DNA of 60,251 nt, from contig JAKASO010000009.1 of the NCBI GenBank assembly GCA_021818985.1, forward strand, positions 1-60,251, read 5' to 3'. This DNA is from a bacterium (lineage in GTDB: Bacteria; SZUA-79; Acidulodesulfobacterales; Acidulodesulfobacteraceae). The position numbers were made by a program, and so were the translations under genes. Below, piece after piece: positions 4,585 to 58,675 of the stretch. Position 1 is the first letter of the stretch; the number at the start of each line of letters is the position of its first letter. The notes beneath the pieces were generated by a model. The model was given only the letters and a program-made list of their open reading frames with translations, ran no database searches and was not told where the DNA came from.

Positions 4585-5715
4585 ATGATAAACATTAATA
4601 ATAAATTGGTTAACAAGATATATAAAATATATACATCCGAAAACTTAGATAAAGTTTTAGATAAGGCTATTTCTTCAAAGCGCTTAGATAAAGACGATCT
4701 TTCTACGCTTTTGGAGGATAAAATCAGAGCTAACGAGATTATTAATACTGCGGACATCGTTAACACCACCCTTAATTCGGATAAAGTATCTTATGTGGTG
4801 AACAGAAATATTAATTTTACCAATATTTGCCATTTGAACTGCAGGTTTTGCGGCTACAAAAGATCAGCAAAATCCAAAGACTCTTTTGTTCTGGATTATG
4901 ATGAAATACTTAAAAAAATAGAAGAAGGCTATTTGATAGGCATAAATGAGGTATGCATTACAGGCGGGATAAATTCTAAGCTTGATGCCGATTATTATTT
5001 TGATATGATAAAAATTATAAAGCGGAATTTTCCCGCATTGCATATTCATGCATTTTCACCGCAGGAGATATTTGAACTTGCAAATAAAACCGGTTTTTCA
5101 TACGAAAAAGTAATTGCCATCTTAATTGACAATGGACTTAATTCTATGCCGGGAACGGCTGCGGAAATACTGGCTCCTGCATTGCGAAAAAAAATATGTT
5201 CGGACAAAATAAATTCAAAACAGTGGACGAAAATAATAACGACAGCCCATAAAGCGGGCGTAAAAACCTCTGCCACCATATTATTTGGTCATATCGAGAC
5301 AAATCCGGATATTGCTTATCATTTAGATTTAATAAGAAATATTCAAGATGAGACTGGAGGATTTACCGAATTTATATCCCTGCCGTTCATTCCTTTTAAA
5401 ACATCTTTAAGAACCAGCGTCAAATCAAATCTCAAAGCAGACGATATTTTTAAATTCTATGCAATTTTCAGGTTATACCTGCATAATTTTAAAAATATTC
5501 AGGTAAGTTGGCCTAAAATCGGTATAGATGCTGCCGTAAGGTCGCTCGGCTGCGGTATTAACGATTTCGGAGGCACTCTTATGGAAGAAAATATTACTAA
5601 AAGCGCAGGCGGAAATTATGGAGAATACCTTTCAGAAAAAGATATAATTTCATTAATTAGATCGGCTGGAAAAATTCCAATAAGAAGGGATACCCTTTAT
5701 AATTATCTGTTTTGA
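4585..5715 (+). CDS. CofH-like radical SAM enzyme (FO synthase subunit 2 type)
   Basis: This radical SAM enzyme belongs to the CofH/MqnE/MqnC group. CofH couples tyrosine to a ribityl-uracil precursor on the way to the deazaflavin of coenzyme F420. The cluster cysteines are in CHLNCRFC (C82, C86, C89). CofH-type signatures are SMPGTAAEIL, the segment GGFTEFISLPFIP, and GGTLMEENITKSAGG near the C terminus. MqnC and MqnE instead carry a GGGAEI pattern, as the MqnC gene at 15598 does. The length, 376 residues, is normal. No CofG or other F420 genes are in the window, so true CofH function is inferred from motifs only; a divergent MqnE is the main alternative. Confidence 0.75.
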   Translation: MININNKLVNKIYKIYTSENLDKVLDKAISSKRLDKDDLSTLLEDKIRANEIINTADIVNTTLNSDKVSYVVNRNINFTNICHLNCRFCGYKRSAKSKDSFVLDYDEILKKIEEGYLIGINEVCITGGINSKLDADYYFDMIKIIKRNFPALHIHAFSPQEIFELANKTGFSYEKVIAILIDNGLNSMPGTAAEILAPALRKKICSDKINSKQWTKIITTAHKAGVKTSATILFGHIETNPDIAYHLDLIRNIQDETGGFTEFISLPFIPFKTSLRTSVKSNLKADDIFKFYAIFRLYLHNFKNIQVSWPKIGIDAAVRSLGCGINDFGGTLMEENITKSAGGNYGEYLSEKDIISLIRSAGKIPIRRDTLYNYLF

Positions 5716-9251: not shown

Positions 9252-11033
9252 TTAGATATTCAATATAAACGGATTTGTGAATTTAGTGAATATCAAGACT
9301 TTATCCGTGTCCATATTTTTGATCTCGTCCGGGTTCATTAATGGATAAAGACCTGAAGAAACGGGGGTTTCATGCATCGTAACGTTTCCGGGGAAAATTC
9401 CTTCGTGATTGGCGGTATTCATTTTTTCCTTATGTAAGACGTACTTATTACCCATCTTTTTTGAGTATGTTTCGCATGTATCGTTGCTTGCATGTCCCAT
9501 TATAATATGAGTGCCTATGTTCGAATCTATCAAAGAGGCGTTGCCATATTTTTCCTCTAAAAAAGATATGTCCTGAACTGTTATTAAAACGCCTGTTTTT
9601 GTCTTTCTGAGGTTTGCAAGCTCTACGTCGAAATTATTAAGAGTTAAAGCGGGGAATTCATCCAAATATAAATAAATATCGGTGTCTTCTTTTACAGATG
9701 CTTCATTGTATAAATCATTTTTTATACCGGCATCGTAAAGATTGCCATTAATATCTTTATCTTTAACGTAATTGCCCGTAATCTTATTGTTATTGTCGTT
9801 ATTGTTATTACCAGCGGCATCAAGGGCAGCATCGGCATTTTTTAATCGTTTGCGCCTGTGTTCGTATATTTCTTTAATAACCATATCGGTTAAAAATGAC
9901 ATCATTTTTGCCCCACCTGCGCCTAATTTCTCCTTCGGGATGCCGGCTATTAAAAGGGTATCCCTTTCAAAAATATCTCCTAACGTGAAATTACTGTCTT
10001 TTTTATCCGATGTTTTAAAAGCGTTCGAAGTTGTTTCGTTCCTTAAAAAACTTAACTCGTTGATGATATCGGTTATGACCTTAGCTCTTTCATAGACGGG
10101 GAGTTCAAAAAGATTATTGAATCCCTCTTTTATAAGCTTATCGTTTAAGCCGTTATAGGAAGAGACTTCTTTTTCGATAAATTTAGCTCCCTTCTTTAAA
10201 AATCTGAAGACGGTAGAGAGATTAAAATATTTAACGCCATATTTATATTTTAGATAGAGCAAACAGGCGTAAAAAACATCGGATGCCCTCCTTGCATAAT
10301 ACCTGTAAGCATGCATGTCGCCTGTTTTTATATTATCCGCATCTGGATGGAAAAGGGCAGACGACAGTTCATATAATTTTTCGTTCGATATAATTTCGTT
10401 ATATTTATTTACTAATGGGTTAAAATGCGCAGTGTTTTCAAAATAAGGATCAAAATTTATAGCCGTTTTGCCTCTTTTTAGCCATTCGTGCTTTACATTC
10501 GTATAAAGATAGGGACTGTCTATATCAATAGCAAAAACACTGGTATTGGAATAGGATGCGTCGTTTTTAATGCCGGGAATAATATATTTTGAGGTTTTGC
10601 CGCCACCTGTCGGGGAAATGATCATGCAGTGTTCAAATCTCTTGTTCCTGTCAATGCCGATTATTGTTTTACTCAACATGCCAAGCTTAAAAAAGTTCCG
10701 AAAGCCGGCTTTTTTTATATTTTTCTTATTAAAAAAGTAGGGCAGAAATAAAAATAAAATGGCTATTAGAAAGATGACGCTTATAATGGCGCTAAAAATA
10801 TTAAACTGGACGGCGATATCAGAGGTTAATCGCTCCTGCAGGTAGAAAAAAGATGATAGCGAAATAATAAAAAAGATCAAAAAAAATATTCCGGTTAAAA
10901 TTTTTAAAACGCTTATTTTTTCTTTAAGGGGCGGACAGTTATAGAAATTGTCCGCTATTTCCTGATATGTGGCAAATCTGCCGGTTGCCGCCGAATGGTT
11001 CTTTTTCTTTGAAAAAAAATCAAATATATACAT
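9252..11033 (-). CDS. Stand-alone VirD4/TraG-type coupling ATPase
   Basis: This predicted inner-membrane hexameric ATPase resembles T4SS coupling proteins, which hand DNA or proteins to the secretion channel. Two membrane helices are seen at about residues 42-66 and 76-101. Walker A is SPTGGGKTS and Walker B is YLYLDEFPAL near residue 464; the TraD/TraG C-terminal segment follows (LITVQDISFLEEKYG, then GTHIIMG). An Asn- and Asp-rich insert sits at about residues 408-440 (AAGNNNNDNNNKITG), probably a surface loop. The 593 residues appear full length. It is far from the T4SS cluster at 43-56 kb, which has its own VirD4, and no relaxase is next to it. It could be the remnant of an integrated element beside tRNA-Pro, or a second coupling protein. 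Confidence 0.8.
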   Translation of the reverse strand: MYIFDFFSKKKNHSAATGRFATYQEIADNFYNCPPLKEKISVLKILTGIFFLIFFIISLSSFFYLQERLTSDIAVQFNIFSAIISVIFLIAILFLFLPYFFNKKNIKKAGFRNFFKLGMLSKTIIGIDRNKRFEHCMIISPTGGGKTSKYIIPGIKNDASYSNTSVFAIDIDSPYLYTNVKHEWLKRGKTAINFDPYFENTAHFNPLVNKYNEIISNEKLYELSSALFHPDADNIKTGDMHAYRYYARRASDVFYACLLYLKYKYGVKYFNLSTVFRFLKKGAKFIEKEVSSYNGLNDKLIKEGFNNLFELPVYERAKVITDIINELSFLRNETTSNAFKTSDKKDSNFTLGDIFERDTLLIAGIPKEKLGAGGAKMMSFLTDMVIKEIYEHRRKRLKNADAALDAAGNNNNDNNNKITGNYVKDKDINGNLYDAGIKNDLYNEASVKEDTDIYLYLDEFPALTLNNFDVELANLRKTKTGVLITVQDISFLEEKYGNASLIDSNIGTHIIMGHASNDTCETYSKKMGNKYVLHKEKMNTANHEGIFPGNVTMHETPVSSGLYPLMNPDEIKNMDTDKVLIFTKFTNPFILNI

Positions 11034-11778: not shown

Positions 11779-12333
11779 ATGATTACGGTTATAATTGACG
11801 GCTATAATTTTATATTTAATTCTTATCCTAAGATAAACATCAAAGCGGAAAAGCTTCAAGAATTAAGAAATAAGACGATAAATTTATTATCGCAGTATTA
11901 TAATGTAAAAAAAAATAAAGTGGTAGTCGTTTTTGATGGTTATAAAACGGATGAGCCGTCCGAAGCAAGATATACCATAGATAATATAGAAATCGTTTAT
12001 TCAAAAAGAGGGGAAAAAGCCGACGAAGTTATTATGAGAATGGTTAGTATTGCTGAAAATGCGCTGGTTGTTACCAACGATAATGAAATTAAAAGATATG
12101 CAGAAAAGATCTATAACGTTTCTTGTATAAGCCCCGAGGAATTCAAATTATTGATATATGGCATTATTGAAGAAAGCAGAATTTCCGCCGGCAATACTGA
12201 TAACGCCCGCAATGAGGGATACGAAGAATTAGACGAAAAAGGCGATAGAAAAAATAGTGGCAAAAAACGAGGAAATCCGCATCGTTTATCTAAAAAAGAG
12301 CGATTAAAATTACAAAAGATAAGAAAATTATAA
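11779..12333 (+). CDS. YacP-like NYN domain protein (Rae1-type ribonuclease)
   Basis: This PIN-like NYN domain protein belongs to COG3688, whose Bacillus member Rae1/YacP is a ribosome-associated endoribonuclease. The nuclease motifs are IIDGYNFIF (first acidic residue), VVVFDGYKTDEP and KADEVIMRMV, followed by VVTNDNEIKRYA; these supply the acidic metal-binding residues. The last ~45 residues are a polar, basic tail (KKRGNPHRLSKKERLKLQKI) that could bind RNA. The length is 184. It is followed, 88 bases on, by the sigma-28 gene, with only short AT repeats between. Confidence 0.88.
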   Translation: MITVIIDGYNFIFNSYPKINIKAEKLQELRNKTINLLSQYYNVKKNKVVVVFDGYKTDEPSEARYTIDNIEIVYSKRGEKADEVIMRMVSIAENALVVTNDNEIKRYAEKIYNVSCISPEEFKLLIYGIIEESRISAGNTDNARNEGYEELDEKGDRKNSGKKRGNPHRLSKKERLKLQKIRKL

Positions 12334-12421: not shown

Positions 12422-13132
12422 ATGAACAAAATAGACGAAAAAGCAAAAAAACTGATAGAAGAAAATTTTAATATGATCAATAATGTTGCAGGTTTTATGA
12501 TGATCAAATTTCACGGGCTTGTTAATAAAGACGACATGCTTGAATTCGGCATTAGCGGGCTGATTGATGCGGCAATTAAATTTAACCCTTCTAAAAATGA
12601 AAATTTCAAAAAATATGCAATTACAAGAATCAAAGGTTCAATATTGGATGGCATCAGAAAACTTGACTATATGCCGAGAAATACCCGGGAGATATCAACT
12701 AAAATTGAAAGAGCCTATCTTAATCTTGAGCAAAAATTAAATAGAATGCCGGAGGATATTGAAGTAGCTCAGGAACTTGGTGTGAGCCTGAACGAATTTA
12801 ACTATATGCTTTATAAAATAAGGGGGGCTTCATTTTTATCCAAGATGGATTTTGTCGGCAAATCAAGTAATTTTGCGGAATCAGTAGAAAATATCGAAGG
12901 TAATGAGCCTGCACCGATAGACGATCTTGTTGGGGAAGAAAAAAAGCAAATACTTAGAAAGTATATTGATACTTTGGATGTTATCGAAAAAAACATATTG
13001 ATGATGTATTATTACGACGAACTGACGCTCAAAGAGATTGGCAGCATGCTTAATCTTACCGAATCGAGGATATGCCAAATTCATTCCAAGGCGATAATAA
13101 AATTAAGGGCAAAACTAAGATCTTACGAATAG
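12422..13132 (+). CDS. Sigma-28 family RNA polymerase sigma factor (FliA/WhiG type)
   Basis: This alternative sigma factor directs RNA polymerase to motility- or development-type promoters. Region 2 shows GLIDAAIKFNP and FKKYAITRIKGSILDGIRKLD (the -10 binding helix). Region 3 is at about 95-140 (LEQKLNRMPEDIEVAQELG). Region 4 holds the helix-turn-helix TLKEIGSMLNLTESRICQIHSKA. The length of 236 is normal. No flagellar genes are in the window, but a protein with a FlgM-like domain follows 609 bases downstream, which suggests a sigma and anti-sigma pair. There is no clear ribosome-binding site before the ATG. Confidence 0.92.
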   Translation: MNKIDEKAKKLIEENFNMINNVAGFMMIKFHGLVNKDDMLEFGISGLIDAAIKFNPSKNENFKKYAITRIKGSILDGIRKLDYMPRNTREISTKIERAYLNLEQKLNRMPEDIEVAQELGVSLNEFNYMLYKIRGASFLSKMDFVGKSSNFAESVENIEGNEPAPIDDLVGEEKKQILRKYIDTLDVIEKNILMMYYYDELTLKEIGSMLNLTESRICQIHSKAIIKLRAKLRSYE

Positions 13133-13179
13133 CTATGAATAGACAGAGGAAACGAAAAGAGGCAGGTATGGGGGGATAT

Positions 13180-13203
13180 AACGGAAAATAATTATTTTCC
13201 GTT
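13180..13203. terminator. Perfect 24-base palindrome after the sigma-28 gene
   Basis: The 12-base half AACGGAAAATAA is followed directly by its reverse complement, ending at 13203, 47 bases after the sigma factor stop codon. It could fold into a hairpin terminator, but no T-run follows and the stem has no loop. An operator for a dimeric regulator is an equal possibility. Confidence 0.45.
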
Positions 13204-13326
13204 AAAGATTAAAAAAATACTGATAAAATAGCTTTTCTTAAAAAATTGTGTAATTTGCTATACTTATACCAATAAATAAATAATTTACTTTTCAAATAGC
13301 GCTAAATTTAAGTTTAAAATAAAAAT

Positions 13327-13354
13327 TAAAGTTTTTACCGGATAGTTACGATTA
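13327..13354 (+). promoter_or_regulatory. Candidate sigma-28-type promoter
   Basis: An exact TAAAGTTT (13327-13334), the sigma-28 -35 consensus, is followed after 12 bases by TACGATTA (13347-13354), which matches 5 of 8 positions of the -10 consensus GCCGATAA. It lies between the sigma-28 gene and the FlgM-domain gene. The DNA is AT-rich, so chance is possible. The match is seen in the sequence; the role is inferred. Confidence 0.35.
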
Positions 13355-13545
13355 TGTTGTGTAAGGGTTAATCTCCCCGCTTTAAGAGTACTTCTTGATA
13401 ATTATTTTATAACTATTCAAAATTATAAGCATTATATAAGTTTTATAAGTATTTTTATATTTTTATTCAGGATATAATCGAAGATCCGGCAAATTATTGC
13501 AGATATTCCCCTTATAGAAAAGAGAAAAGGTAGCCGGCACTCCCC

Positions 13546-13677
13546 ATGCAGGCTCTGGCAGTAAATACCAGCGGTATTGTGCAAAAAAAGATCAACGATA
13601 CCACTGCAAAGCTTGAAGTTTCTAGAGGAAAAGTCTGTAAGGCATTAGAGGCCTTTATTTTGCATAATAACAAATAA
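13546..13677 (+). CDS. Small ORF, 43 residues, unknown
   Basis: The reading frame begins MQALAVNTSGIVQKK and ends ALEAFILHNNK. Its composition (few A/T-only codons, alternating hydrophobic and polar residues) is more gene-like than the AT-rich DNA around it. An AAAAGG lies about 16 bases before the ATG, which is far for a ribosome-binding site. It sits between the sigma-28 gene and the FlgM-domain gene, downstream of a candidate sigma-28 promoter. No family is recognised. It ends 64 bases before the next gene and could belong to the same transcript. Confidence 0.45.
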   Translation: MQALAVNTSGIVQKKINDTTAKLEVSRGKVCKALEAFILHNNK

Positions 13678-13741
13678 TACAGCTTCAGTATATATTATTC
13701 TATTTAACTTTTTAACTTTCCCATTTGGAGACCAATTTATT

Positions 13742-14629
13742 ATGGAACAGCAATTGAGCAATATTTCAGTTGAATTTAACATCACTTTTCCTCCCGATCA
13801 GATACCTAAAATTCTGATAAACAGGAATTTAGCCAGCCTTTTAGGTATAATAAAATTAAATGAAGTTGTTGATGCAAGCTTAGTTGACATCGAAGGACAT
13901 ACACCCTTTTTTACCGGTATTCTATCTTTTAATGGAAATTTATTTAAAGCCGCTATTCCCGAGGCTCTTTATTACGAATTTGAATCGTGCAGCGGTACCG
14001 GCAAAGGGTATTATATGCCGCTAAAACTTGCGGTAAGTTTTGTTTCCAATGACGCCGTTATCCTTAACGTCGTAAAGACCACAAGCACATCTTCGCGGGA
14101 AGGCCTGCTTAAGCTGATGAGCGCAGTAAACGAGAATTTTGTCAGAATTGCCGAAAGTACTTTTTTGAATGAGTTTAACAATAAATTAAGCTTAAACACC
14201 AATAACTTAAGTAACTTAAGTCCAACAATTAAAAATGATACTTTAGTTTTTAATTTTAATTTTAATTTAAACGCCTTGCCAATTGGCGATGCTTCCGTTG
14301 TGATGCCGGCCAAAAAAGAAGATATAGGTAAAGACAAAAATAAAGAGAGGGAAGATAAAGAGGAAAAAAATAAAGAGGATAAAGAGAGTGTGGGCGCGGG
14401 TAAAACAACCGGCGGCGACAAAGCCGTTTCCGGCGACATTTCGCCCGATTCCACAAATATATTAAGCGATGCCGAATTCATAAGGAGACTGAAAAACAGG
14501 ATTCTTTCATCCCTGCATTTAAAGGCAGACCGCCTTAGCGAAATAAAATCAAAAATTGAAATGGGAACATACGCCGACAGTTCAAAAATAGCCGACGGGA
14601 TATTAAAAGCCTCCGAAAATAAATTTTAA
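13742..14629 (+). CDS. Protein with unknown N-terminal domain and C-terminal FlgM-like anti-sigma-28 domain
   Basis: Residues about 240-291 match the C-terminal half of FlgM, the part that binds sigma-28: RLSEIKSKIEMGTYADSS followed by KIADGILKA, against the family pattern R-V-x-x-L-K-x-x-I-x-x-G and K-I-A-x-x-L. FlgM is normally about 70-100 residues, whereas this protein has 295. Residues 1-145 form a separate predicted globular domain of alternating strands that I do not recognise. Residues about 190-225 are a highly charged linker (KNKEREDKEEKNKEDKES). It has a GGAG ribosome-binding site (13724-13727, about 14 bases upstream). The sigma-28 gene upstream makes an anti-sigma role likely; the extra domain may sense a signal or partner. 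No secretion signal is seen. Confidence 0.7.
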   Translation: MEQQLSNISVEFNITFPPDQIPKILINRNLASLLGIIKLNEVVDASLVDIEGHTPFFTGILSFNGNLFKAAIPEALYYEFESCSGTGKGYYMPLKLAVSFVSNDAVILNVVKTTSTSSREGLLKLMSAVNENFVRIAESTFLNEFNNKLSLNTNNLSNLSPTIKNDTLVFNFNFNLNALPIGDASVVMPAKKEDIGKDKNKEREDKEEKNKEDKESVGAGKTTGGDKAVSGDISPDSTNILSDAEFIRRLKNRILSSLHLKADRLSEIKSKIEMGTYADSSKIADGILKASENKF

Positions 14630-14690: not shown

Positions 14691-15446
14691 ATGTCCATAT
14701 TTAAACGCAGAAAAGTTGTGATAATCCGCTTTTCCGGTGCGATTACATCGCAAAATGTAACACCTTATATAGATCTTTTAAAAAAAATAGAAAAGATAAA
14801 GTCCGTTAAGGGTGTTATGCTTGTAATTGACAGCCCCGGGGGCAGCGCTATACATTCCGAGCTTTTTTATTTTGCTCTTAAAAAGCTTGAAAAAAAGGGT
14901 AAAAAACTTTACGGTTATCTCGAAGTAGCCGCTTCAGGCGGTTATATGATAGCCTGCTCTTTAGAAAAGTTATACGCCCCTCCTTCGGCAATGGTTGGTT
15001 CGATAGGCGTCATAAGCATGAAACCAGTTTTAAAAGATGTCCTCGAAAAGTTAGGCATAGGATATGAAGTTCTTAAAAAAGGCAAGCATAAAGATATGTG
15101 GTTATTTACAAGAAAATATTCCGAGGAGGAGAGGGCAAGCATTGACGAGCTTCAGGAAGATGTTTATTTAAGATTTATAGATATAGTATCCAAAGGAAGA
15201 AAGATACCTGCCGAAGACGTTTTAAAGCTTGCGACCGGCGAACTGTTCTCTGCTGGAAAATCTCTGTCGAATAAGCTTATAGACGAAGTTTCTGATTTCG
15301 ATAAAGCTTTAGAAGACCTGTGCAGGGAAGTTAATGTCAAGCCGGAAAAGGCTGTTTACGCGGGCATAAAAAAGCCTTTTCTCCAAAGAATGATAGGCAA
15401 ATCAATCCTTAACGCGATAGAAGAAATATATTATAAAGTTATATAA
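14691..15446 (+). CDS. SppA-type serine protease (S49), short form
   Basis: This is a signal-peptide-peptidase-A-like protease with a Ser-Lys dyad. The serine is in EVAASGGYMIA (Ser82) and the lysine in VLKKGKHKDMW (about K130-132). The oxyanion/cap segment VMLVIDSPGGSAIHSELF and the strand MVGSIGVIS are typical. The 251 residues make a single-repeat form. There is no signal peptide or membrane anchor at the N terminus (MSIFKRRKVVIIRF), so it may act in the cytosol or at the membrane surface, unlike anchored SppA. An AAAGG site precedes the ATG. It starts 61 bases after the FlgM-domain gene. Confidence 0.85.
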   Translation: MSIFKRRKVVIIRFSGAITSQNVTPYIDLLKKIEKIKSVKGVMLVIDSPGGSAIHSELFYFALKKLEKKGKKLYGYLEVAASGGYMIACSLEKLYAPPSAMVGSIGVISMKPVLKDVLEKLGIGYEVLKKGKHKDMWLFTRKYSEEERASIDELQEDVYLRFIDIVSKGRKIPAEDVLKLATGELFSAGKSLSNKLIDEVSDFDKALEDLCREVNVKPEKAVYAGIKKPFLQRMIGKSILNAIEEIYYKVI

Positions 15447-15457
15447 AATTATGCCTT

Positions 15458-15474
15458 GCCGCAGGCCTTGCGGC
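15458..15474. terminator. Short GC hairpin after the S49 protease gene
   Basis: GCCGCA (15458-15463) pairs with TGCGGC (15469-15474) around a 5-base loop, 12 bases after the stop codon. No T-run follows, so it is a weak terminator candidate, but it is the only GC-rich block in this intergenic stretch. Confidence 0.35.
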
Positions 15475-15548
15475 TAAAGCCGCCCGATTTATCCCAGAAG
15501 TAAATCCCTTGCCTTTTCATATTTTCATAATAAAAGCAGGGGAGCGGT

Positions 15549-15614
15549 ATGCAAAGAATACACAAAATTTTTAACGTTGAAAATACGGAAAAAAAATATG
15601 TCAAGAATAAATAA
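15549..15614 (+). CDS. Possible 21-codon leader ORF overlapping mqnC start
   Basis: An ATG preceded by GGGGAG (about 4 bases away) opens a 21-codon frame (MQRIHKIFNVENTEKKY, then VKNK) that ends inside the mqnC start region. The mqnC ATG at 15598 has no good ribosome-binding site of its own, so translation coupling through this leader is possible. It may equally be a chance frame. Confidence 0.25.
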   Translation: MQRIHKIFNVENTEKKYVKNK

Positions 15615-16629
15615 AGCCGAGGCTCTAAAGCTTCTTAAAAACAGTAACATCATAGAACTTGGAAAGTTGGCCGATTCGGTGAGAAGAGAAAAGCATCCGG
15701 ACGGTATTGTTACTTTTATCATAGACAGAAATATAAATTATACCAATATTTGTTCTTCAAAATGCAGGTTTTGTGCCTTTTATCGCAATAGCGGCGAAGC
15801 AGACGCTTTTGTTTTAACTCAGGAAAGCCTTTTTAAAAAAGTGGAAGAAACCTTGCAGTTAGGCGGAACACAGATATTGATTCAGGGAGGATTGAACCCC
15901 GATCTTGATTTTGATTTTTATTTAAGGCTTTTATCTTCGATTAAAAACAGGTTTAATATTCATATCCACGGTTTTTCGCCTCCCGAAATATGTTTTTTTT
16001 CAGATAATTTTGATATAACCGTTAAAGAAACTATTTTGCTTTTAAAAGAAGCCGGCCTGGATTCTATCCCAGGCGGAGGCGCCGAGATCTTGGTTGACAG
16101 GGTTAGAGAAAAAATCAGTCCAAATAAAATAAGCGCCGAAAGATGGCTTGAAGTTATGGAAAAAGCCCATGATGCCGGACTAAATTCGTCCGCGACGATG
16201 ATGTTCGGCACTATAGAAACAGACGAAGAGATCATCGAGCATCTGTTTAAGCTTCGCAGTCTTCAGGATAAAACAGGTGGATTTCGCGCATTTATTCCAT
16301 GGAACTTTCAGAGTAAAAACACCAAATTGAACTCAAGAAATACCTACGGCCATTACTATCTTAAGATATTGGCCGTTTCAAGGATCGTCTTAGATAATTT
16401 CGATAATATACAAACGTCATGGGTAACTCAAGGTTCTAAAATGGCTCAGGCCGCCCTTGCTTTCGGTGCTAACGATTTTGGTTCTACAATGATCGAAGAA
16501 AATGTCGTAAAAGCGGCAGGCACTTGTTATTCAATGGTCAGCGAAAATGAAATGGTGAATTTGATCAGGGCAGCAGGATTTAAACCTGCTCAAAGGTTAA
16601 ATAATTATAATATTATAAAATTTTATTAA
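15598..16629 (+). CDS. mqnC: Cyclic dehypoxanthinyl futalosine synthase
   Basis: This radical SAM enzyme cyclises dehypoxanthinyl futalosine in the futalosine route to menaquinone. The cluster cysteines lie in CSSKCRFC (C52, C56, C59 from this start). Diagnostic segments are SIPGGGAEIL, HIHGFSPPE, FGTIETDEEI and GGFRAFIPWNFQS. The C-terminal part GSTMIEENVVKAAG is shared with CofH/MqnE relatives. I chose the ATG at 15598 (MSRINKAEALKLL) rather than the in-frame TTG at 15577, because family members start with the helix IxxxEALxLL; this gives 343 residues. No other mqn genes are in the window. The cell should therefore use menaquinone. Confidence 0.9.
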   Translation: MSRINKAEALKLLKNSNIIELGKLADSVRREKHPDGIVTFIIDRNINYTNICSSKCRFCAFYRNSGEADAFVLTQESLFKKVEETLQLGGTQILIQGGLNPDLDFDFYLRLLSSIKNRFNIHIHGFSPPEICFFSDNFDITVKETILLLKEAGLDSIPGGGAEILVDRVREKISPNKISAERWLEVMEKAHDAGLNSSATMMFGTIETDEEIIEHLFKLRSLQDKTGGFRAFIPWNFQSKNTKLNSRNTYGHYYLKILAVSRIVLDNFDNIQTSWVTQGSKMAQAALAFGANDFGSTMIEENVVKAAGTCYSMVSENEMVNLIRAAGFKPAQRLNNYNIIKFY

Positions 16630-16715
16630 TTACTTTTATGTTTTCTAAAAAATTATGGTATAATCGCTTTTAACCATTAATTAATCTAATCATAAATGAG
16701 TTATAAAGGAACTAT

Positions 16716-16748
16716 AAAGCTCATTAAAGCTCATTGACAAAGCTCATT
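16716..16748. repeat. Three copies of AAAGCTCATT upstream of dksA
   Basis: The 10-mer AAAGCTCATT occurs at 16716-16725, 16726-16735 and 16739-16748, about 90 bases before the dksA start. It could be a cluster of regulator sites or a slippage product. Confidence 0.45.
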
Positions 16749-16836
16749 GAGGGCGGAAAAGCAGTTTGCTAATCTAATTTGGATATTTATTTTATATTTT
16801 TATTTAAGTCTATTTAAGATAAGGTAATGACTGGTT

Positions 16837-17199
16837 ATGGATGCTGAACAGCTCCTGTATTTTAGGAACATACTTAATAAAAAATTAGATGCTATACTTA
16901 ACGAAGCTATAAAGACGGTTGATAGTATGGCTAAAGAAGATGAAACTTTTCCGGATCCGACGGACAGGGCGACTCTTGAATCCGACAGAAATTTTGAACT
17001 CAGGATCAGGGACAGGGAAAGGAAGCTTATTCCTAAAATAAAAGCAGCTCTTCAGCGGATAGATGACGGAACCTATGGAATATGTTCAAGCTGCGGCGGG
17101 GAAATCTCTGAAAAACGATTAGAATCTAGACCGGAGGCAACCCTATGTATCAAGTGTAAAACAAAAGAAGAAGAGTTTGAAAAAAAACATAATTTTTAA
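16837..17199 (+). CDS. dksA: DksA/TraR family zinc-finger transcription factor
   Basis: DksA binds the secondary channel of RNA polymerase and, with ppGpp, tunes transcription of ribosomal and amino-acid genes. The four-cysteine zinc finger is CSSC (C83, C86) and CIKC (C104, C107). The acidic coiled-coil tip is visible as ETFPDPTDRATLESD, which aligns with the FPDPxDRA segment of true DksA, supporting function rather than a TraR-like remnant. The 120 residues are shorter than E. coli DksA (151) but typical of many relatives. It ends 11 bases before glgA and probably shares its transcript. Confidence 0.88.
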   Translation: MDAEQLLYFRNILNKKLDAILNEAIKTVDSMAKEDETFPDPTDRATLESDRNFELRIRDRERKLIPKIKAALQRIDDGTYGICSSCGGEISEKRLESRPEATLCIKCKTKEEEFEKKHNF

Positions 17200-17210
17200 A
17201 AGGTTGCCGT

Positions 17211-18710
17211 ATGAATGTCCTGTTTATGACATCCGAATGTTTTCCGTTTGCCAAAACCGGCGGCCTTGCCGATGTTTCTGAAGCAATCTCCGTTAATCTC
17301 GTTAAAAAAGGGATAAATGTAACCCTTTGCCTTCCTTACTACAAACAGGTCAGCCATCAAAATTTCCGGATCGCAGGAAAGATCGAAAAATTAGAAATAG
17401 ACCCTCCTTTAGAATGTTTAAAAACTTTAGAGTTAACTAATACCGCCCAAAAAAATATAGCAAATCAATTGAAGTTTTTTGATATCTTACCGTATAAGTA
17501 TAAAGGCGTGAATGTTCTTTTTTTTAAAAATGATTTTTTATTTAACAGGGATGCTTTATATGGGTTAGACGATAAAGATTATAAAGATAATCTTTTGAGA
17601 TTTGCTCTTTTTTGTTCCGCATCCCTGACTTTTGTAACCGATAATAAATTTAAATTCGATATAATTCATTGCAACGATTGGCAGACCTCTTTAGTTCCGG
17701 CGTTTGCTAAATTTAAGTTCAAACTGCCTTCAAAAATACTTTTAACGATCCACAATTTAGGTTATCAGGGAATATTTCCAAAAGAACAGTTTTCCTGCGC
17801 ATCTTTAAATAGTTTATTATTTAACATCGACGGCTTTGAATATTACGGCAATATCAATCTACTTAAAGGCGGGATCGAATTTTCTGATGCGGTTAATACA
17901 GTAAGCAGAAAATATGCTGAAGAGATAAAGACAAAAGAATATGGTTTTGGACTTGACGGTGTCCTTGAAAACAAAAAAGATAAACTTTTTGGAATATTGA
18001 ACGGCGTTGATTACGACGAATGGAATCCCGAAATAGATAAGCATATAGTAAAAAATTATTCGATAAAAAATTTTAAAACAGGTAAAAAATCGTGTAAAAA
18101 AGATTTGCTTACGGTTTTTTTTGGCAAGCAATTTGACGGAGCTTTGATGGATAAACCTGTAATAAGTATAGTTTCAAGGCTTGAAGACCAGAAGGGTTTT
18201 CCGGTCTTTATGGACGCTATTCCGGAAATAATTAAAAGGGGAGGGGTGATCATCGTTCTTGGAACCGGCAATAAAGAAATAGAGAACGGATTTAAAAAAA
18301 TGGCGGAAACCTATCCTCAAAATATCTCCGTTAAAATAATGTATGACAATCAGATATCTCATAAAATAGAAGCCGGCAGCGATTTTTTCATAATGCCTTC
18401 AAAATACGAGCCATCCGGCCTTAATCAGATGTACAGTTTGAAATACGGTACTATTCCGATTGTGCATGGAACCGGCGGGTTGGACGATACGATCATAAAT
18501 TTCGACGGTACAAATATAAACGAGGCCGATGGATTTAAATTTTACGGATTTTCGGCAGAAGAACTGTTAAAATCTGTTAATAGCGCTTTGGATATTTATT
18601 TTAACGATAAAAATACTTTTAATAAACTTATAGAAAATGCAATGGAAAAAGACTTTTTATGGAGCAGGTCTATCGAAGAATATATTTCGCTTTATAATAA
18701 AATTCAATAA
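17211..18710 (+). CDS. glgA: Glycogen synthase (ADP-glucose type)
   Basis: This GT5 glycosyltransferase extends alpha-1,4-glucan from ADP-glucose (or UDP-glucose). The nucleotide-binding motif FAKTGGLADV is at residues 13-22. The C-terminal domain shows SIVSRLEDQKG, and the sugar-nucleotide site is MPSKYEPSGLNQMYSLKYG, followed by GTGGLDDTI. The length of 499 is normal. An AAAAGG site lies before the ATG. With the GH57 enzyme at 21133 it suggests alpha-glucan storage or turnover. No glgC or glgB gene is in the window. Confidence 0.93.
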   Translation: MNVLFMTSECFPFAKTGGLADVSEAISVNLVKKGINVTLCLPYYKQVSHQNFRIAGKIEKLEIDPPLECLKTLELTNTAQKNIANQLKFFDILPYKYKGVNVLFFKNDFLFNRDALYGLDDKDYKDNLLRFALFCSASLTFVTDNKFKFDIIHCNDWQTSLVPAFAKFKFKLPSKILLTIHNLGYQGIFPKEQFSCASLNSLLFNIDGFEYYGNINLLKGGIEFSDAVNTVSRKYAEEIKTKEYGFGLDGVLENKKDKLFGILNGVDYDEWNPEIDKHIVKNYSIKNFKTGKKSCKKDLLTVFFGKQFDGALMDKPVISIVSRLEDQKGFPVFMDAIPEIIKRGGVIIVLGTGNKEIENGFKKMAETYPQNISVKIMYDNQISHKIEAGSDFFIMPSKYEPSGLNQMYSLKYGTIPIVHGTGGLDDTIINFDGTNINEADGFKFYGFSAEELLKSVNSALDIYFNDKNTFNKLIENAMEKDFLWSRSIEEYISLYNKIQ

Positions 18711-46160: not shown

Positions 46161-47942
46161 TCAGGATACCTCCCGATCAAAATAACTCTTATATTTCGAC
46201 CTGTAAAAAGGGTGTAAATAAACAATGCCGGGCCCTTCAACCGTTTTACCTGAATATATTCTGTAAATTGCCTGATTCAATTTAAGATTGGCAAAATCAT
46301 CGGTATCAAAAGCAGGCATCTTTTCCATTGTTTTTGTGGTTCCCTGAGATATTGTATTGTCGTCGGAAAGAAGACCGCCGATATTAACGTTGAACCTTGC
46401 TCCTTCATCCTGTTCCGTTATGTTTTCGGTAATCTTAACCTTAAACTCTTTGTCGCATATTTTTGATGCCTTTTCGCGGGAGTAATCGTCGCTTAAAGAT
46501 AGCCATATCGTAGATCTTATATTCCCTATGAGCGAATTTAGTTTTTCTTCGGAGCCCAATTTTAGTTTTAACGAACTATAACTTTGGGTCAGCATGATAT
46601 TTACCGCCTTTGACTGTCTGCACCTTGCAAAAAATTCGCTGTCCGATTCGATCTCTCCCGAAGTAACATAATTCTGGTATTCATCACATATAAAAAGCAC
46701 CGGTCTTTTCATGTTGATACTTCTGTCTGTAACAGCATTGTAAACCCTGTTCAGGACAGTCCTGAAATAGTCCAATTTAAGCATGATCCCGACGGCTCTT
46801 CCCGTTAAACCGTATTTTGATTCGTGCATCCTTAATATGACGATTTTCCCTTTATTAACGATCTCCTGAAATCCTGGAAAATTTAATTTTTCTTTTGGAA
46901 CGCAAAAAGTATTTTTATATACCGGATTAACAAAATCCGAACAGACCCTTAACGATTCGCTTTTAATTATTGCTTTCGTTCTTTCATCGAGTCCAGCATA
47001 ATCACTGCCTCTAAAATAGCCGGTATGAATTTTTAAATTATCAATATCATGAGCGTTTAAATCATTACCCGAAGCTATACTTTCGGCATAAAGAAGAATG
47101 TCTTCAAGCTTATTTTCATCGGAAATAATTTCGTATATCCCGTCTAAAGTAACATAATTAAAACATATTCTTAAAAGATCGAGACAGTGAGATAAGAGAT
47201 TTATAGATTTATCTTTCCAGTAGCTATCCTGTCTAGCATCATTTGACCGGACCTGCTCCATGGCGCTATACAATCTTTCCGCAATTACTTTAGCATCTAA
47301 AGAGGGATAATGGATTGGATTATAGAAATATCCGGAATCCGGTTCTATTATAATAATATCGTCAAGACGGCCATGCTTTGTAATTATATCCATGGCGGCT
47401 TTCCAAAAATCGCCCTTAACATCCAATATAAGCCCGCCGATTTTTTCATCAGCACTATTTTTTTTGCAGCTTATAAGCTGATCGAGAAAAGGATAGGCGC
47501 AGGCACTTGTTTTACCTGTCCCTGTTGAACCCACTACGAGTAAGCTGGTATAAAGCCCGTTTTTATCTATAATAAGCCACTCCGGTTTTCCAGCCATATT
47601 TCCATCCTTATTATGCAGTTCTCCCACGACTAACATAAAATCGTCCGTTGCCGGCCACGGCGGCATGCCGACGCTGCTCGGGCTCTTGATGATTTCGGTC
47701 TTTACAGGTTTAAAATAGAGATATTTGTTATAGATTATATTAAAAAACGCCCATGAAGAAAAAAACCATGTAATTACCGGCAGAAAAATAAAAAATGGTT
47801 TTACTGACCCAAAATAATAAAAATAATAATTTACCCTGCTATCGGAAAAAAAGCCCGAAAATACAAAAAGATATAAAAGCTCAGAAATAAATAAAAAACC
47901 AGCCCCCGCAAATTTTAAAATGAACCCTTTATTATTTTTCAT
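46161..47942 (-). CDS. VirD4-type coupling protein of the T4SS
   Basis: This inner-membrane ATPase brings substrates to the T4SS channel. Two N-terminal membrane helices lie at about 11-32 and 46-68. Walker A is GSTGTGKTS and Walker B is VLFICDEYQNY near residue 405, followed by the arginine/coupling segment RQSKAVNIMLTQSYSSLKLKLG. The GGLILDVKGDFWKAA segment after Walker A is typical of TraD/TraG/VirD4. The 593 residues are full length. It directly follows the MoxR-type ATPase and precedes the small membrane protein. Confidence 0.88.
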   Translation of the reverse strand: MKNNKGFILKFAGAGFLFISELLYLFVFSGFFSDSRVNYYFYYFGSVKPFFIFLPVITWFFSSWAFFNIIYNKYLYFKPVKTEIIKSPSSVGMPPWPATDDFMLVVGELHNKDGNMAGKPEWLIIDKNGLYTSLLVVGSTGTGKTSACAYPFLDQLISCKKNSADEKIGGLILDVKGDFWKAAMDIITKHGRLDDIIIIEPDSGYFYNPIHYPSLDAKVIAERLYSAMEQVRSNDARQDSYWKDKSINLLSHCLDLLRICFNYVTLDGIYEIISDENKLEDILLYAESIASGNDLNAHDIDNLKIHTGYFRGSDYAGLDERTKAIIKSESLRVCSDFVNPVYKNTFCVPKEKLNFPGFQEIVNKGKIVILRMHESKYGLTGRAVGIMLKLDYFRTVLNRVYNAVTDRSINMKRPVLFICDEYQNYVTSGEIESDSEFFARCRQSKAVNIMLTQSYSSLKLKLGSEEKLNSLIGNIRSTIWLSLSDDYSREKASKICDKEFKVKITENITEQDEGARFNVNIGGLLSDDNTISQGTTKTMEKMPAFDTDDFANLKLNQAIYRIYSGKTVEGPGIVYLHPFYRSKYKSYFDREVS

Positions 47943-47974
47943 TGGTATTTTTTAAAGGCAAGCCGTAAACGAAA

Positions 47975-48862
47975 TCAGGTTATTAATTTTTTGATCACGC
48001 TCTTTACGCTTCTTATGTCGGAATAAAACGTCCATAAAGACGATTCGATTGATTTAATATCTTCCATGCTTATCTCGTCCCTGCAATTAAGAAATGCATT
48101 AACCTGCATGATTCTGATGGTTTCGCGCCACCTTCTGTCGGAGACCGTTACCTGTTTATTTAGTAACTCCTCTCTGATATGATGCATGATATTGTAAATT
48201 TTCTCAGGAACCTTTATAAAAGCGGAGCTCTGTCCAATTAAATCGAGATCGCCGATGTTAATCTCGATGCCGCCATAACTATATTCTTCGGCTATATTTA
48301 AAAGTTTCGTAAAATTTTTAGGATCTTTTACGGGGGACACTTCATTTCGCAGTAAAAATCTGTCATATAACGGTAAAAGTGCAGCGCCGGAGGATTTATC
48401 AGGTTTTTCATTGGAAGTTGCAAACAAGCTTATTAAAGGAATTGCAGCTGGCTGGGGCGCATAAATTATTCTTTCGTTCATTATAGAAAGCAGCGAATTT
48501 AATGTCGGCGAAGGCCCCTTAAAAAATTCGTCTATCAAAGCTATCTCGCATTTATCTATACCCTGCCCCATGTTTGCCTTATTTTTTGAAAGGAGGCTAT
48601 CTATTTCCGTTAGAGGGGTCATTTGATAATCAAAAAACCGGAGCCCTTTAATATGTTTTGAAAACGCTTTTAAGACCCCTGTTTTTGCCAGTCCTGGATC
48701 GCCAACTAATATCATGTGCTTTCTTGAGGCTATCGAAAGAATTATAGTTTCGATAATTTCGGACCTTTCGATGAAATACGAATTAAGCTTTTTCTTTATT
48801 GTAATGAGTTTCTCTCTAATAAAGCCGGCTTTTTTCGGTTCTTTTTCTTTAACGCTATTCAT
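47975..48862 (-). CDS. MoxR/RavA-type AAA+ ATPase in the T4SS operon
   Basis: This AAA+ ATPase of the MoxR superclass has Walker A GDPGLAKT (residues 54-61), Walker B IALIDE (107-112), sensor 1 LFATSNEKPD (Asn151) and the RavA-like LLPLYDRFLLRNEV segment. The lid domain with sensor 2 (VSDRRWRETIRIMQ) matches RavA-type members, and the 295 residues are a single ATPase domain. RavA-type proteins work with VWA partners as metal-loading or complex-assembly chaperones; no VWA protein is seen here. The gene lies between virB10 and virD4, where other T4SS have VirB11. Whether it replaces VirB11 or helps assemble the machine is unknown. Confidence 0.85.
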   Translation of the reverse strand: MNSVKEKEPKKAGFIREKLITIKKKLNSYFIERSEIIETIILSIASRKHMILVGDPGLAKTGVLKAFSKHIKGLRFFDYQMTPLTEIDSLLSKNKANMGQGIDKCEIALIDEFFKGPSPTLNSLLSIMNERIIYAPQPAAIPLISLFATSNEKPDKSSGAALLPLYDRFLLRNEVSPVKDPKNFTKLLNIAEEYSYGGIEINIGDLDLIGQSSAFIKVPEKIYNIMHHIREELLNKQVTVSDRRWRETIRIMQVNAFLNCRDEISMEDIKSIESSLWTFYSDIRSVKSVIKKLIT

Positions 48863-48941
48863 CTTATTTTTGTCTTATAAACTAAAGGAAATTTTAGGAA
48901 ATTTTGCAATTAATATTATGTTAATTATATTAATTTTAATA

Positions 48942-50138
48942 TCATTTTAAGTGAATAGAGCGGAGAAAGATTATTTTAATAGGTGTATCCTTCGGCAGTG
49001 TAATTGTCGTCCTTCGCATGGAGCTGCTAAAGGAGTTTATACTGTTTTGCGCCTGACCAATTTCGTTTTGAGCCACATTTTGCCGTAATTGATCCTGAAA
49101 TGTATAAGGATTGGATGAATTAACCGCTGAACCTCCGCCTGCAAGCAAAGCGGCCGCCCCGATGACCCCTTCTACGGCGGATGTCAGAATATTGCCAGTA
49201 TAATGATGATGCACATTTCCTTTTACTCCGCCGGAACCGTCAGCCGTCATGGCTATTGCATCAATATTCAGACTTTTTCCATCGGATTTGATTATTTTAT
49301 TAAAGTTCATATTAAGCCTGTTTAACGAATGCTTTATGCTGACCATACCAAAGAATTTATCCCCTTTTTTCAGCACCGCTTTTTTATTGCGGTAAAAGCT
49401 GTGCAAAAGGATAGCTATAACCGGAACCTCTGTATTATAAGAAAAAATCTTATATTTAGTATAAGCATCCATAACCGTGCCTATGGGTATCGTAAAACCG
49501 TTTTCATTTGTTTTATCTGCCGCAGGGGTGAAGATGCCCGTTTTATATGCATAGTGGACCATTTTATTTTTTTTATCACCCTCTTCCTCTTTTGCTACCT
49601 TTCTTTCATAACTTAATTTAATAAATACAATCATTTTTTTTGCTATCGCCGGTTTTTGCATGTTTATTGCAGTTTCATAACTGGCAATATCTTTATTTTT
49701 ATTTTGCTGGACATTAATTTTCTTTAGCGTCATCATTTCTTTGTTAAATTTATTGTTAAAATTCTTACCGGCTTTTGAATTATCCATGATATTTGCCGGC
49801 GTTCTATTAATGTTATCAAAAGTGGACGAAGAGAATCTTCTTTTATAGCTTATAATCTTGTTTTTTATTATCTTAGGTTTTCCGGCAGTTTGGTTTTTCT
49901 CTCTATATATTTTGGAAAAGATAAGTTTAAAGGCTATAAAAGATAAAAATAATAAAATTAAAATAAAAAGAGGCAAGCGGTAGGATTTTAAAATACTGTT
50001 TTTTGCCTTAGTATTAGCAGGCATGGAATTATAAATATCGTTCTTTTTATCCACTCCAGTACCATCGCTATTATTTTGTCCCTCTGTTATTATATGACGA
50101 CCTAATCCGCTACTTTCCGAAAATGGATTAAATTTCAT
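48942..50138 (-). CDS. VirB10/TrbI-like T4SS channel protein
   Basis: VirB10 spans both membranes and forms the outer channel. One membrane helix (residues about 51-70, LPLFILILLFLSFIAFKLI) is preceded by a short cytosolic part and followed by a charged periplasmic linker (about 75-180). The C-terminal beta domain has the family pattern PIGTVMDAYTKYKIFS, KKGDKFFG, LNIDAIAMTADG and GAAALLAGGGS, and ends with ITLPKDTPIKIIFL. The length is 398. Its ATG overlaps the stop of the VirB8 gene by one base. Confidence 0.82.
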   Translation of the reverse strand: MKFNPFSESSGLGRHIITEGQNNSDGTGVDKKNDIYNSMPANTKAKNSILKSYRLPLFILILLFLSFIAFKLIFSKIYREKNQTAGKPKIIKNKIISYKRRFSSSTFDNINRTPANIMDNSKAGKNFNNKFNKEMMTLKKINVQQNKNKDIASYETAINMQKPAIAKKMIVFIKLSYERKVAKEEEGDKKNKMVHYAYKTGIFTPAADKTNENGFTIPIGTVMDAYTKYKIFSYNTEVPVIAILLHSFYRNKKAVLKKGDKFFGMVSIKHSLNRLNMNFNKIIKSDGKSLNIDAIAMTADGSGGVKGNVHHHYTGNILTSAVEGVIGAAALLAGGGSAVNSSNPYTFQDQLRQNVAQNEIGQAQNSINSFSSSMRRTTITLPKDTPIKIIFLRSIHLK

Positions 50139-50797
50139 TAAGCACCACCTAATTTTAATGTATTAAAATATTCGACTTCCAATCCAAACGGGTATTCCAA
50201 GCTTCTTTTTACCCTCTTTAAAATCAGTTTGTCTTCAAAAGCCTTGCTGTCTTCAATTTTTGAATCGGCATTGGAAATTACCTTTCTTATTATGTAAAAT
50301 TTTAAAACATCATGGTTGACCGTCTGTCTGACAAGCTTTATTTTCCTGAATTTTATTCTCGAAGATATATTGGCTCTTTCCATTTTTTGAATGAAGTTAT
50401 CTTTTAAAATCGTTTTAAGGGTGTTATTCCCGTATGAAGGAGCCATTTTATTAAGAGCCCGTGAAAGCTGGGTTTTGATCGTTAATGAATTAAAGCCGGT
50501 AAATTCTCTTATAAAGCTTTTAGAAAAATACAAGATCTCTCCTATTCCAACTTTATTGTTTAACGGTAAATTCCTTAATATTTTTGCATTACCCGCCTTA
50601 GATACCCTTATGACTATAGGAACCCTGTTTATTTTGTAAGTATAAAAAGAGGTAAAAAGGGCGGTTACCGTTATTACCGCCATTAGCAGGATCACGACTT
50701 TAAGCGTTGCGTTCTGAGCGTTTAAATCCCCCCAGATTTCATAGAAAAATCTTTTATTATTTTTTTTACCGTCTTTTATATTAAAAAAATTAAACAT
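50138..50797 (-). CDS. VirB8/TraE-like T4SS protein
   Basis: This bitopic inner-membrane protein, 219 residues, has one helix at about 32-52 (LKVVILLMAVITVTALFTSF) and a periplasmic domain rich in beta and helix. The size and layout fit VirB8 or TraE of conjugation systems; the sequence is divergent, so family assignment uses position between VirB6 and VirB10. It shares one base with the virB10 start. Confidence 0.65.
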   Translation of the reverse strand: MFNFFNIKDGKKNNKRFFYEIWGDLNAQNATLKVVILLMAVITVTALFTSFYTYKINRVPIVIRVSKAGNAKILRNLPLNNKVGIGEILYFSKSFIREFTGFNSLTIKTQLSRALNKMAPSYGNNTLKTILKDNFIQKMERANISSRIKFRKIKLVRQTVNHDVLKFYIIRKVISNADSKIEDSKAFEDKLILKRVKRSLEYPFGLEVEYFNTLKLGGA

Positions 50798-50871
50798 ATA
50801 AGATATAAGAAATAAGAAAGAAAGACTGTATTAACCATTAATTAATTTGTTTGCGTTATATTGCCGGATGA

Positions 50872-51951
50872 TTATTTCTTTTCCCCAATAAAGTTTCTTG
50901 CGATCCCTTTATGCGGATTTTCATAAACGCTGTCAAAAAGTTTTCCTACGATAAAAGGTACCGTTATTGATAAAAATGCCATGCAGATAAAAATAACAAC
51001 ATCTTCGGCAAAAGTCAGCGCACCAAGGAATTGGCCGAATCCGTAGCCGGATGACGAGAAATCCACGGATGCGATCTTCACAAGTATAGTAAAAAAAACA
51101 AGTTGTTCAAGGGCTACCACTATTCCCCAGCATGATACTTCTATAAATATTTTAAGCCACTTCCCGAAAACCTTTCTTGTGTACGGAATCGTCTCAAATC
51201 CAAGAATGATTGGACATATTGCTACCAATATGCCTAAAATTATAAGCTGCACAAATGCCATTCCTAACTGAATTACCAGATAAAAAAGGTTAAATAAGAA
51301 CCAAATAATGCTTAAGAGGATCCTTCCAGTTAAAGCATGAACCGCTCCAGCAAACCATGAAAACGGGTTTAAATTCCAGCCGCTTTTAACGGACGAGGTG
51401 CCATTGGTTGAAACAGTCGGCAAAGACAGATGTCTCAGTTCGGACAGTATTGACGCATTGATCTGCGAGATACTGCCGTAATCAAATACATTTATTTTTA
51501 AAAGATACAGCTGAAGTTTATCGGCGATCGTAAGAATATCCTCCGTAAAGTTAGAGGTGCCGGCCGATTTCCATGATAAAAAACCCACTGCAATTAATAC
51601 GGTTCTTAAAAACAAGTCGTAATAATTAAAAGATTGCCCCGTAAGCTCCAGCCTATAGCCCTCCCACAACGAAAAGATTATTCCCGCAGCGAACAAAAAA
51701 TAAAACATATATGTTGTAAAATTCACTAAATTTGAATACCGGTTTAATGCAGGCGGCAGGGAATCTATAGAAAGGATCGTAAGATCCTGGCCCGATCCAA
51801 ACTTTGAAATAGAAAGGACGGACGAATTCATATTAGCCGGCGAAGTTGAGCTGGAGGCGGAGTTAGTTAAAGCATAAGAGTTTTCTGACGGCACTAAAAA
51901 ATAAATTATCAAAAAAGCAGCGAGCATAAATTTTAATGTTGCAAGCTTCAT
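50872..51951 (-). CDS. VirB6/TrbL-like polytopic T4SS protein
   Basis: This membrane protein of 359 residues has an N-terminal signal-like segment (MLAAFLIIYFLVPSENSYA), then an exported Ser-rich part, and at least five hydrophobic segments, including MFYFLFAAGIIFSLWEG, ILLSIIWFLFNLFYLVIQLG and FAEDVVIFICMAFLSITVPF. This layout matches VirB6/TrbL, the inner-membrane channel part. It stands between VirB5 and VirB8, the usual place. Confidence 0.75.
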   Translation of the reverse strand: MKLATLKFMLAAFLIIYFLVPSENSYALTNSASSSTSPANMNSSVLSISKFGSGQDLTILSIDSLPPALNRYSNLVNFTTYMFYFLFAAGIIFSLWEGYRLELTGQSFNYYDLFLRTVLIAVGFLSWKSAGTSNFTEDILTIADKLQLYLLKINVFDYGSISQINASILSELRHLSLPTVSTNGTSSVKSGWNLNPFSWFAGAVHALTGRILLSIIWFLFNLFYLVIQLGMAFVQLIILGILVAICPIILGFETIPYTRKVFGKWLKIFIEVSCWGIVVALEQLVFFTILVKIASVDFSSSGYGFGQFLGALTFAEDVVIFICMAFLSITVPFIVGKLFDSVYENPHKGIARNFIGEKK

Positions 51952-51996
51952 TTTGTTTCTATAATGCTGTTATAATGCTATTATATTATTATAATG

Positions 51997-58579: not shown

Positions 58580-58675
58580 TGGCGGAAGCGTATGGGAATC
58601 GAACCCACCGCGCCCCTTTTGAGAGCGCCTGTTGATTTGAAGTCAAAGAGGAGCACCAGCTCTCTGTTCGCTTCC
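58580..58675 (-). tRNA. selC: tRNA-Sec (anticodon TCA)
   Basis: On the minus strand the tRNA begins GGAAGCGA and ends CGCTTCCGCCA. The anticodon loop CTTCAAA carries TCA (plus-strand 58638-58640) in a stem TTGA/TCAA. The long D stem and the long variable arm (GGCGCTCTC ... then GCGCGG) are typical of bacterial selenocysteine tRNA; the T arm is GGTGGGTTCGATTCCCATA-like. The length is 96 with CCA. It shows that the cell makes selenoproteins, but none is seen in this window. Confidence 0.9.

Follow-up and report, generated by a model that had tools for sequence, protein, structure and literature searches.

We found that a 295-aa open reading frame (ORF) in the genome of a bacterium whose named relatives come from acid mine drainage joins the N-terminal region of a FliK-like protein of the flagellar cluster to the sigma-28-binding domain of FlgM, and the gene order of its relatives makes it near certain that this fusion arose by a deletion between the two parental genes. 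The fusion ORF, delimited from the ORF list and by genome comparison, occupies positions 13742 to 14629 (plus strand) of the window, by which we mean the whole stretch of 60,251 nucleotides that was analyzed. It lies behind an intact fliA, in a genome in which searches for five flagellar and chemotaxis families found none. We favor, with a probability of about 0.6, the reading that FliA and the fusion are an anti-sigma pair that may still work and was retained without flagella.

The FlgM domain lies at positions 14447 to 14608 (plus strand). The Pfam model PF04316 covers residues 236 to 289 of the fusion with all of its positions (1 to 55 of 55). By hmmscan the match scores 22.3 bits (E 1.5e-4), under the 25-bit cut-off, and in the genome search 25.6 bits, above it. 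Such a borderline score is normal for the family, since the FlgM matches of 4 of the 22 other matching genomes also fall below the cut-off; in three of these (G001, G015, and G017) flgM is nevertheless an ordinary separate gene, and in the fourth (G003) the match is a remnant. Comparison of the fusion with the FlgM proteins of nine relatives by hhalign gave a probability of 97.8% (E 1.1e-12), and the C-terminal FlgM block GTYADSSKIA is retained in the alignment. A sequence search of the PDB returned a single weak match, 9wsf_B, "negative regulator of flagellin synthesis" (E 0.3). The initial annotation, made from the DNA alone, had placed a FlgM domain at the C terminus of an unusually long protein, and these data bear it out. 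Indeed, the fusion is the sole PF04316 match in the genome, with no separate, normal flgM elsewhere.

The annotation had also placed a sigma-28 gene close by, which is correct, although its heading, a sigma-28 factor with a FlgM domain, runs together two separate ORFs that are 609 bp apart. The gene upstream of the fusion, fliA (12422 to 13132, plus strand), is intact and encodes a 236-aa protein that reaches 202.2 bits against the NCBIfam model TIGR02479 (FliA_WhiG; cut-off, 189.6) and thus belongs to the FliA/WhiG proteins by sequence. Sigma-70 regions 2, 3, and 4 are all present (Pfam PF04542, PF04539, and PF04545). This FliA is 62 to 69% identical to 19 FliA proteins of the family and matches 101 of 108 family-invariant columns.

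The genome itself (1.62 Mb in 89 contigs, with a listed completeness of 100%) gave no match in profile searches for FlhA (PF00771), flagellin (PF00669), the rod/hook domain Flg_bbr_C (PF06429), FliG (PF01706), or CheW (PF01584), while the same runs matched all five families in flagellated relatives. The earlier claim that flagellar genes are missing is therefore upheld, and release of FlgM by flagellar export is impossible in this organism, which nonetheless keeps an intact fliA and a FlgM domain. The named members of the family belong to "Ca. Acidulodesulfobacterales," bacteria of acid mine drainage that include "Ca. Acididesulfobacter diazotrophicus" AP1 (PMC6776010). According to the available text of that study, fliC, fliD, and flgE are among the most transcribed genes of this order (PMC6776010); flagella are thus expressed in the relatives and were lost in the lineage of the window.

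We searched the fusion protein against 99 genomes, 30 of them from the window's own family. It matched 24 genomes, all within these 30, and none of the 69 from other families. Of these 24, 16 encode the halves separately on one contig, as genes of the same orientation about 7 kb apart, and 4 carry them on different contigs; 2 genomes have the FlgM part only, 1 has the N-terminal part only, and the remaining one is the window's own. In the relatives, some 6 kb, with flgFGAHI, separate the gene matching the N-terminal part (here called X) from an ordinary flgM of about 96 aa. Three genomes (G006, G004, and G002) have the order che genes, parA, cheW, a small gene of 92 to 106 aa, X, a gene resembling the C-terminal part of FlhB, and a PilZ-like gene on the opposite strand, and the cluster continues with flgF, flgG, flgA, flgH, flgI, flgM, flgN, flgK, and flgL, followed by csrA and fliW. 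Most of these names are presumptive assignments that we made by inspecting the sequences, and the profile score of FlgN was below the cut-off.

The fusion aligns to X from its start to about residue 198 (13742 to 14335, plus strand; tblastn E values of 5e-30 to 1e-7 against X of the relatives) and to FlgM from about residue 220. Between the two parts, positions 14336 to 14446 (plus strand) hold a charged linker and the deletion junction, which can be placed only to an interval: homology to X stops at 14335, and homology to FlgM sets in somewhere from 14399 to 14441, varying with the relative used for comparison. The N-terminal domain is 41 to 44% identical to X of a sister genus (g2) and covers the N-terminal two-thirds of that protein. 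X itself, 285 to 295 aa long in G006, G004, and G002, is likely a FliK-like protein. We so name it because its C terminus matches the FliK hook-length control domain (PF02120, Flg_hook), below the cut-off in all three proteins tested (E 0.0042, 0.065, and 3e-4), and because it stands ahead of the FlhB C-terminal-like gene (flhX; PF01312, E 6.6e-24 in G006). A Pfam scan of the fusion found no PF02120 domain. The N-terminal domain, which the annotation had regarded as new, is thus by homology an old flagellar piece rather than an invention, given that in the relatives each half is a gene of its own within a single flagellar cluster.

The ancestral order would have been fliA - che genes - parA - small gene - X - flhX - flgFGAHI - flgM - flgN - flgK - flgL - csrA - fliW ... 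sppA ... mqnC. Most of the flagellar and chemotaxis cluster was deleted in this lineage, and the comparison strongly supports a single deletion of about 6 kb (6.0 kb measured on G004, 6.4 kb on G006) that began within X, ended around codon 20 of flgM, and fused the two genes in frame. An assembly artefact was considered as the source of the fusion and is unlikely, because the flanks are collinear with those of the relatives and the five flagellar and chemotaxis families are absent from the rest of the genome. We found no second X-flgM fusion among the 12 loci of a wider contig search, which may leave out records of the window's own genome; X was an ORF of its own (283 to 331 aa) in all 12. Likewise, within the searchable open-license PMC papers, no FlgM-FliK fusion was found by title or the start of the abstract.

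The surroundings of the fusion retain traces of what was lost. Positions 13175 to 13404 (plus strand; clearest from 13290 to 13396) hold a broken remnant, with in-frame stops, of the parA/soj-like gene of the flagellar and chemotaxis cluster, detected by tblastn (30.8 bits versus 21.6 for the best of 200 shuffles) and by DNA alignment (score, 91 versus 71 for the best of 100 shuffles). The small gene ahead of X, which encodes 92 to 125 aa in the relatives, survives as a frameshifted remnant at positions 13471 to 13612 (plus strand); here, tblastn found two pieces in different frames (23.1 bits versus 18.9 for the best of 200 shuffles), and the DNA score was 72 versus 48 for the best of 100 shuffles. 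The two remnants keep their ancestral order directly ahead of the X part, and the 609 bp between fliA and the fusion compare with 8.9 to 10.1 kb from fliA to the small gene alone in the relatives. On the right, sppA, an mqnC-like gene, dksA, and glgA (14691 to 18710, plus strand) correspond by gene order to the conserved flank of the relatives' flagellar cluster. The same order is found in G006 (locus L059), with mqnC-dksA-glgA at locus L058 and mqnC-dksA at loci L060 and L061; G004, G002, and G008 have the flank in part, with no sppA within the stretches read. Given the remnants in ancestral order and these conserved neighbors, the locus is, as judged by comparison, the collapsed remainder of a flagellar and chemotaxis cluster.

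On the left, a YacP/NYN-domain gene (11779 to 12333, plus strand; PF05991, E 3.6e-25) stands just upstream of fliA, and in G003 the same gene stands ahead of a short flhF-like ORF, flhG, and fliA (locus L036). Just left of the locus lies, on its own, a gene for a VirD4/TraG-like protein of 593 aa (9252 to 11033, minus strand), the same length as another VirD4-like protein in the window; a homologue (46% identical) adjoins the NYN gene in G003 (L036, 2 to 787). The window also holds a partial conjugation or type IV secretion cluster (46161 to 55735, minus strand; VirD4-like, TrbI-like, and VirB4/TraG-like), with a tRNA-SeC (58580 to 58675) a few kilobases away, possibly an integrated element. 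Two CofH/MqnC-type radical SAM proteins (4585 to 5715 and 15577 to 16629) flank the collapsed locus.

Two other genomes of the family have lost flagella. In G003 (99% complete), profile searches found none of FlhA, flagellin, rod/hook, FliG, or CheW, and its locus consists of the NYN gene, the short flhF-like ORF, flhG, a fliA that is intact, and a remnant of flgM that lacks an ATG, followed by mqnC. Just ahead of this remnant stands a site of sigma-28 type that departs from the family consensus at one position (L036, 5126 to 5532). The FliA tree groups the window with the flagellated genus g2 (support, 0.985) and leaves G003 outside, and the MqnC tree, with six taxa, also places g2 with the window (0.831). 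A loss shared with G003 was therefore rejected; the two losses look separate on these trees, and FliA would have outlived both. G018 (96% complete) lacks FlhA, flagellin, rod/hook, and FliG and keeps CheW (four matches), and its fliA is decayed, with four in-frame stops (G018:C78:13632-13841). About 2 kb from this pseudogene lies a long CheW-domain ORF (a 724-aa open frame, the size of CheA), so that chemotaxis genes outlived flagella there. Together with the flgM of G003, the fliA of G018 indicates that decay does occur in the family.

We also looked for promoters that FliA might use. In the family, the motif TTAAAG-N15-GNCGATTR precedes flgM (e.g., in G006) and a flagellin gene (e.g., in G005). 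At least one exact site was found in 22 of the 30 family genomes and none in the window's genome, a zero that bears on the use of FliA and not on its membership in FliA/WhiG by sequence; drifted sites are possible. Allowing one mismatch gave 11 sites, versus 2 with a reversed-pattern control. One of the 11 belongs to the parA relic; of the 10 beyond this locus, 9 lie within coding ORFs, for which reason they were rejected as a sigma-28 regulon. The exact and one-mismatch searches thus found no clear regulon in this genome. The relic site, TTAAAG-N15-TACGATTA (13326 to 13354, plus strand), resembles the flagellin promoter of a relative and was considered as a promoter of the fusion, but the same sequence lies inside the parA coding DNA of relatives (LKFLP..YDY); being inherited coding sequence, it is no evidence of a promoter. 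The conserved sigma-28 promoter of flgM itself is, by comparison with the relatives, lost in the deletion.

To see how the two retained genes have evolved, we fitted a branch codon model (own script; 11 taxa for X and 12 for FliA, with the same outcome in a smaller first run). On the window branch, omega was well below 1, and omega = 1 was rejected against a free omega (dlnL of 8.3 for X and 7.6 for FliA). Adding a final neutral phase never improved the fit, and a phase above roughly 0.3 (X) or 0.2 (FliA) changes per codon cost about 2 units of lnL. When changes were counted in relative-rate comparisons with the flagellated sister genus, nine for each gene, the window showed no excess; the smallest P value for X was 0.16, and the only one below 0.05 for FliA had the window evolving more slowly. 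The FlgM part is mildly accelerated (P < 0.05 in two of nine comparisons), and the codon test has no power on it. Because synonymous sites are saturated, all of these tests are blind to a short, recent neutral phase. In a simulation of neutral decay (600 runs each, ignoring indels), each ORF was still free of stops in 53% of the runs when 0.02 changes per site were allowed, but in about 5% at 0.1. Besides the FliA columns given above, the window matches 10 of 12 family-invariant columns of X and, of those of FlgM, 10 of 14; leave-one-out values of single relatives are higher (e.g., for G002, 108 of 111 in FliA, 26 of 28 in X, and 14 of 15 in FlgM), which hints at some relaxation, the window being also a long branch.

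As neither FliA nor the FliK-derived part is accelerated, the pair may have stayed functional in the absence of flagella. The genome comparison shows a deletion origin, a lost export route, a lost FlgM N terminus, and an intact FliA and FlgM core. The FlgM part most likely still binds FliA and would keep it inactive. Export could not relieve this inhibition, since FlgM has lost its original N terminus, which is its export part, and the genome has lost the apparatus. If FliA is released at all, proteolysis or turnover, or altered amounts of FliA and the fusion, might achieve it, as proposed for Legionella oakridgensis, and the domain taken over from X would act as passive cargo or as a determinant of stability rather than as a dedicated sensor.

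The two genes could instead be functionless, unbroken leftovers of a recent flagellar loss, a reading that we hold to be possible, if short of even odds. It draws on the neighboring parA and small-gene pieces, which are already broken, on the loss of the flgM promoter and the lack of a clear sigma-28 regulon, on the decayed genes of G018 and G003, and on the simulation, in which about half of the runs left each ORF open at the lower divergence. What speaks against it is that, of a region spanning tens of kilobases in the relatives, only fliA and the fusion are whole, that neither FliA nor X is accelerated, and that the codon model caps any neutral phase as given above. The initial annotation had proposed that another signal might act through the N-terminal domain, which would then serve as a sensor governing the release of FliA. 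The fusion is indeed a single open, unaccelerated ORF, and some other release route would be needed if there is no export; however, the domain is an ordinary FliK-like piece cut at the deletion, no sigma-28 targets were identified in the genome, and structure prediction revealed no ligand or sensor fold. The AlphaFold model of the domain (pLDDT 60.4, pTM 0.41) had no Foldseek match to the PDB at an E value of 0.001 or less (best E 0.02), a result that by itself speaks neither for nor against the proposal. Having found no evidence of signal input, we consider such a sensor very improbable. Rewiring of FliA/FlgM to a nonflagellar regulon, with the FliK N-terminal domain as a handle through which FlgM would be controlled, by its stability or by a partner protein, is improbable as well; if true, the pair would be an export-free anti-sigma switch with a domain gained by deletion.

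The origin of the fusion carries some general implications. A regulator can gain a large extra domain merely through the loss of intervening genes, and "novel domain fusions" in reduced genomes therefore need to be checked against the gene order of relatives. Furthermore, if the pair works, it offers a minimal system for testing how FlgM releases FliA when there is no export. Retention of FliA by itself is common, as the available text of a 2025 survey reports FliA matches in 41% of nonmotile genomes (PMC12199754).

Compared with known systems, the fusion resembles canonical FlgM (PF04316) in its full-model sigma-28-binding C-terminal domain and in the nearby fliA. It differs in that FlgM is short (about 100 aa), has its own N terminus, and is exported via the flagellum, whereas the fusion has 295 aa and a replaced N terminus, in a genome that has no FlhA and no export apparatus. 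With the FliK-like hook-length protein of the relatives, encoded ahead of FlhX, it shares the N-terminal 200 or so residues; the C-terminal Flg_hook-like domain is deleted in the fusion, and the genome has neither hook nor export apparatus. The closest parallel is the FliA/FlgM pair of the nonflagellated L. oakridgensis, for which the study cited is reportedly that of Tlapak et al. 2017. According to the available text of a review, the flagellar regulon of L. oakridgensis was lost and only FliA and FlgM homologues are left, both functional, with FlgM acting as a negative regulator that is seemingly degraded instead of secreted (PMC5655016). A pair surviving without flagella is thus not the new kind of anti-sigma switch that the annotation had suggested, the Legionella case having been reported already. 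As in the window, flagella are gone, FliA and FlgM are kept, and export of FlgM is impossible; the FlgM of L. oakridgensis, however, is sigma-28 dependent and, in that text, is not described as fused, whereas the one in the window, from a distant lineage, carries a FliK-like part at its N terminus and has its promoter deleted. Legionella is thus joined by another lineage in which the flagellum is gone and sigma-28 persists together with its inhibitor.
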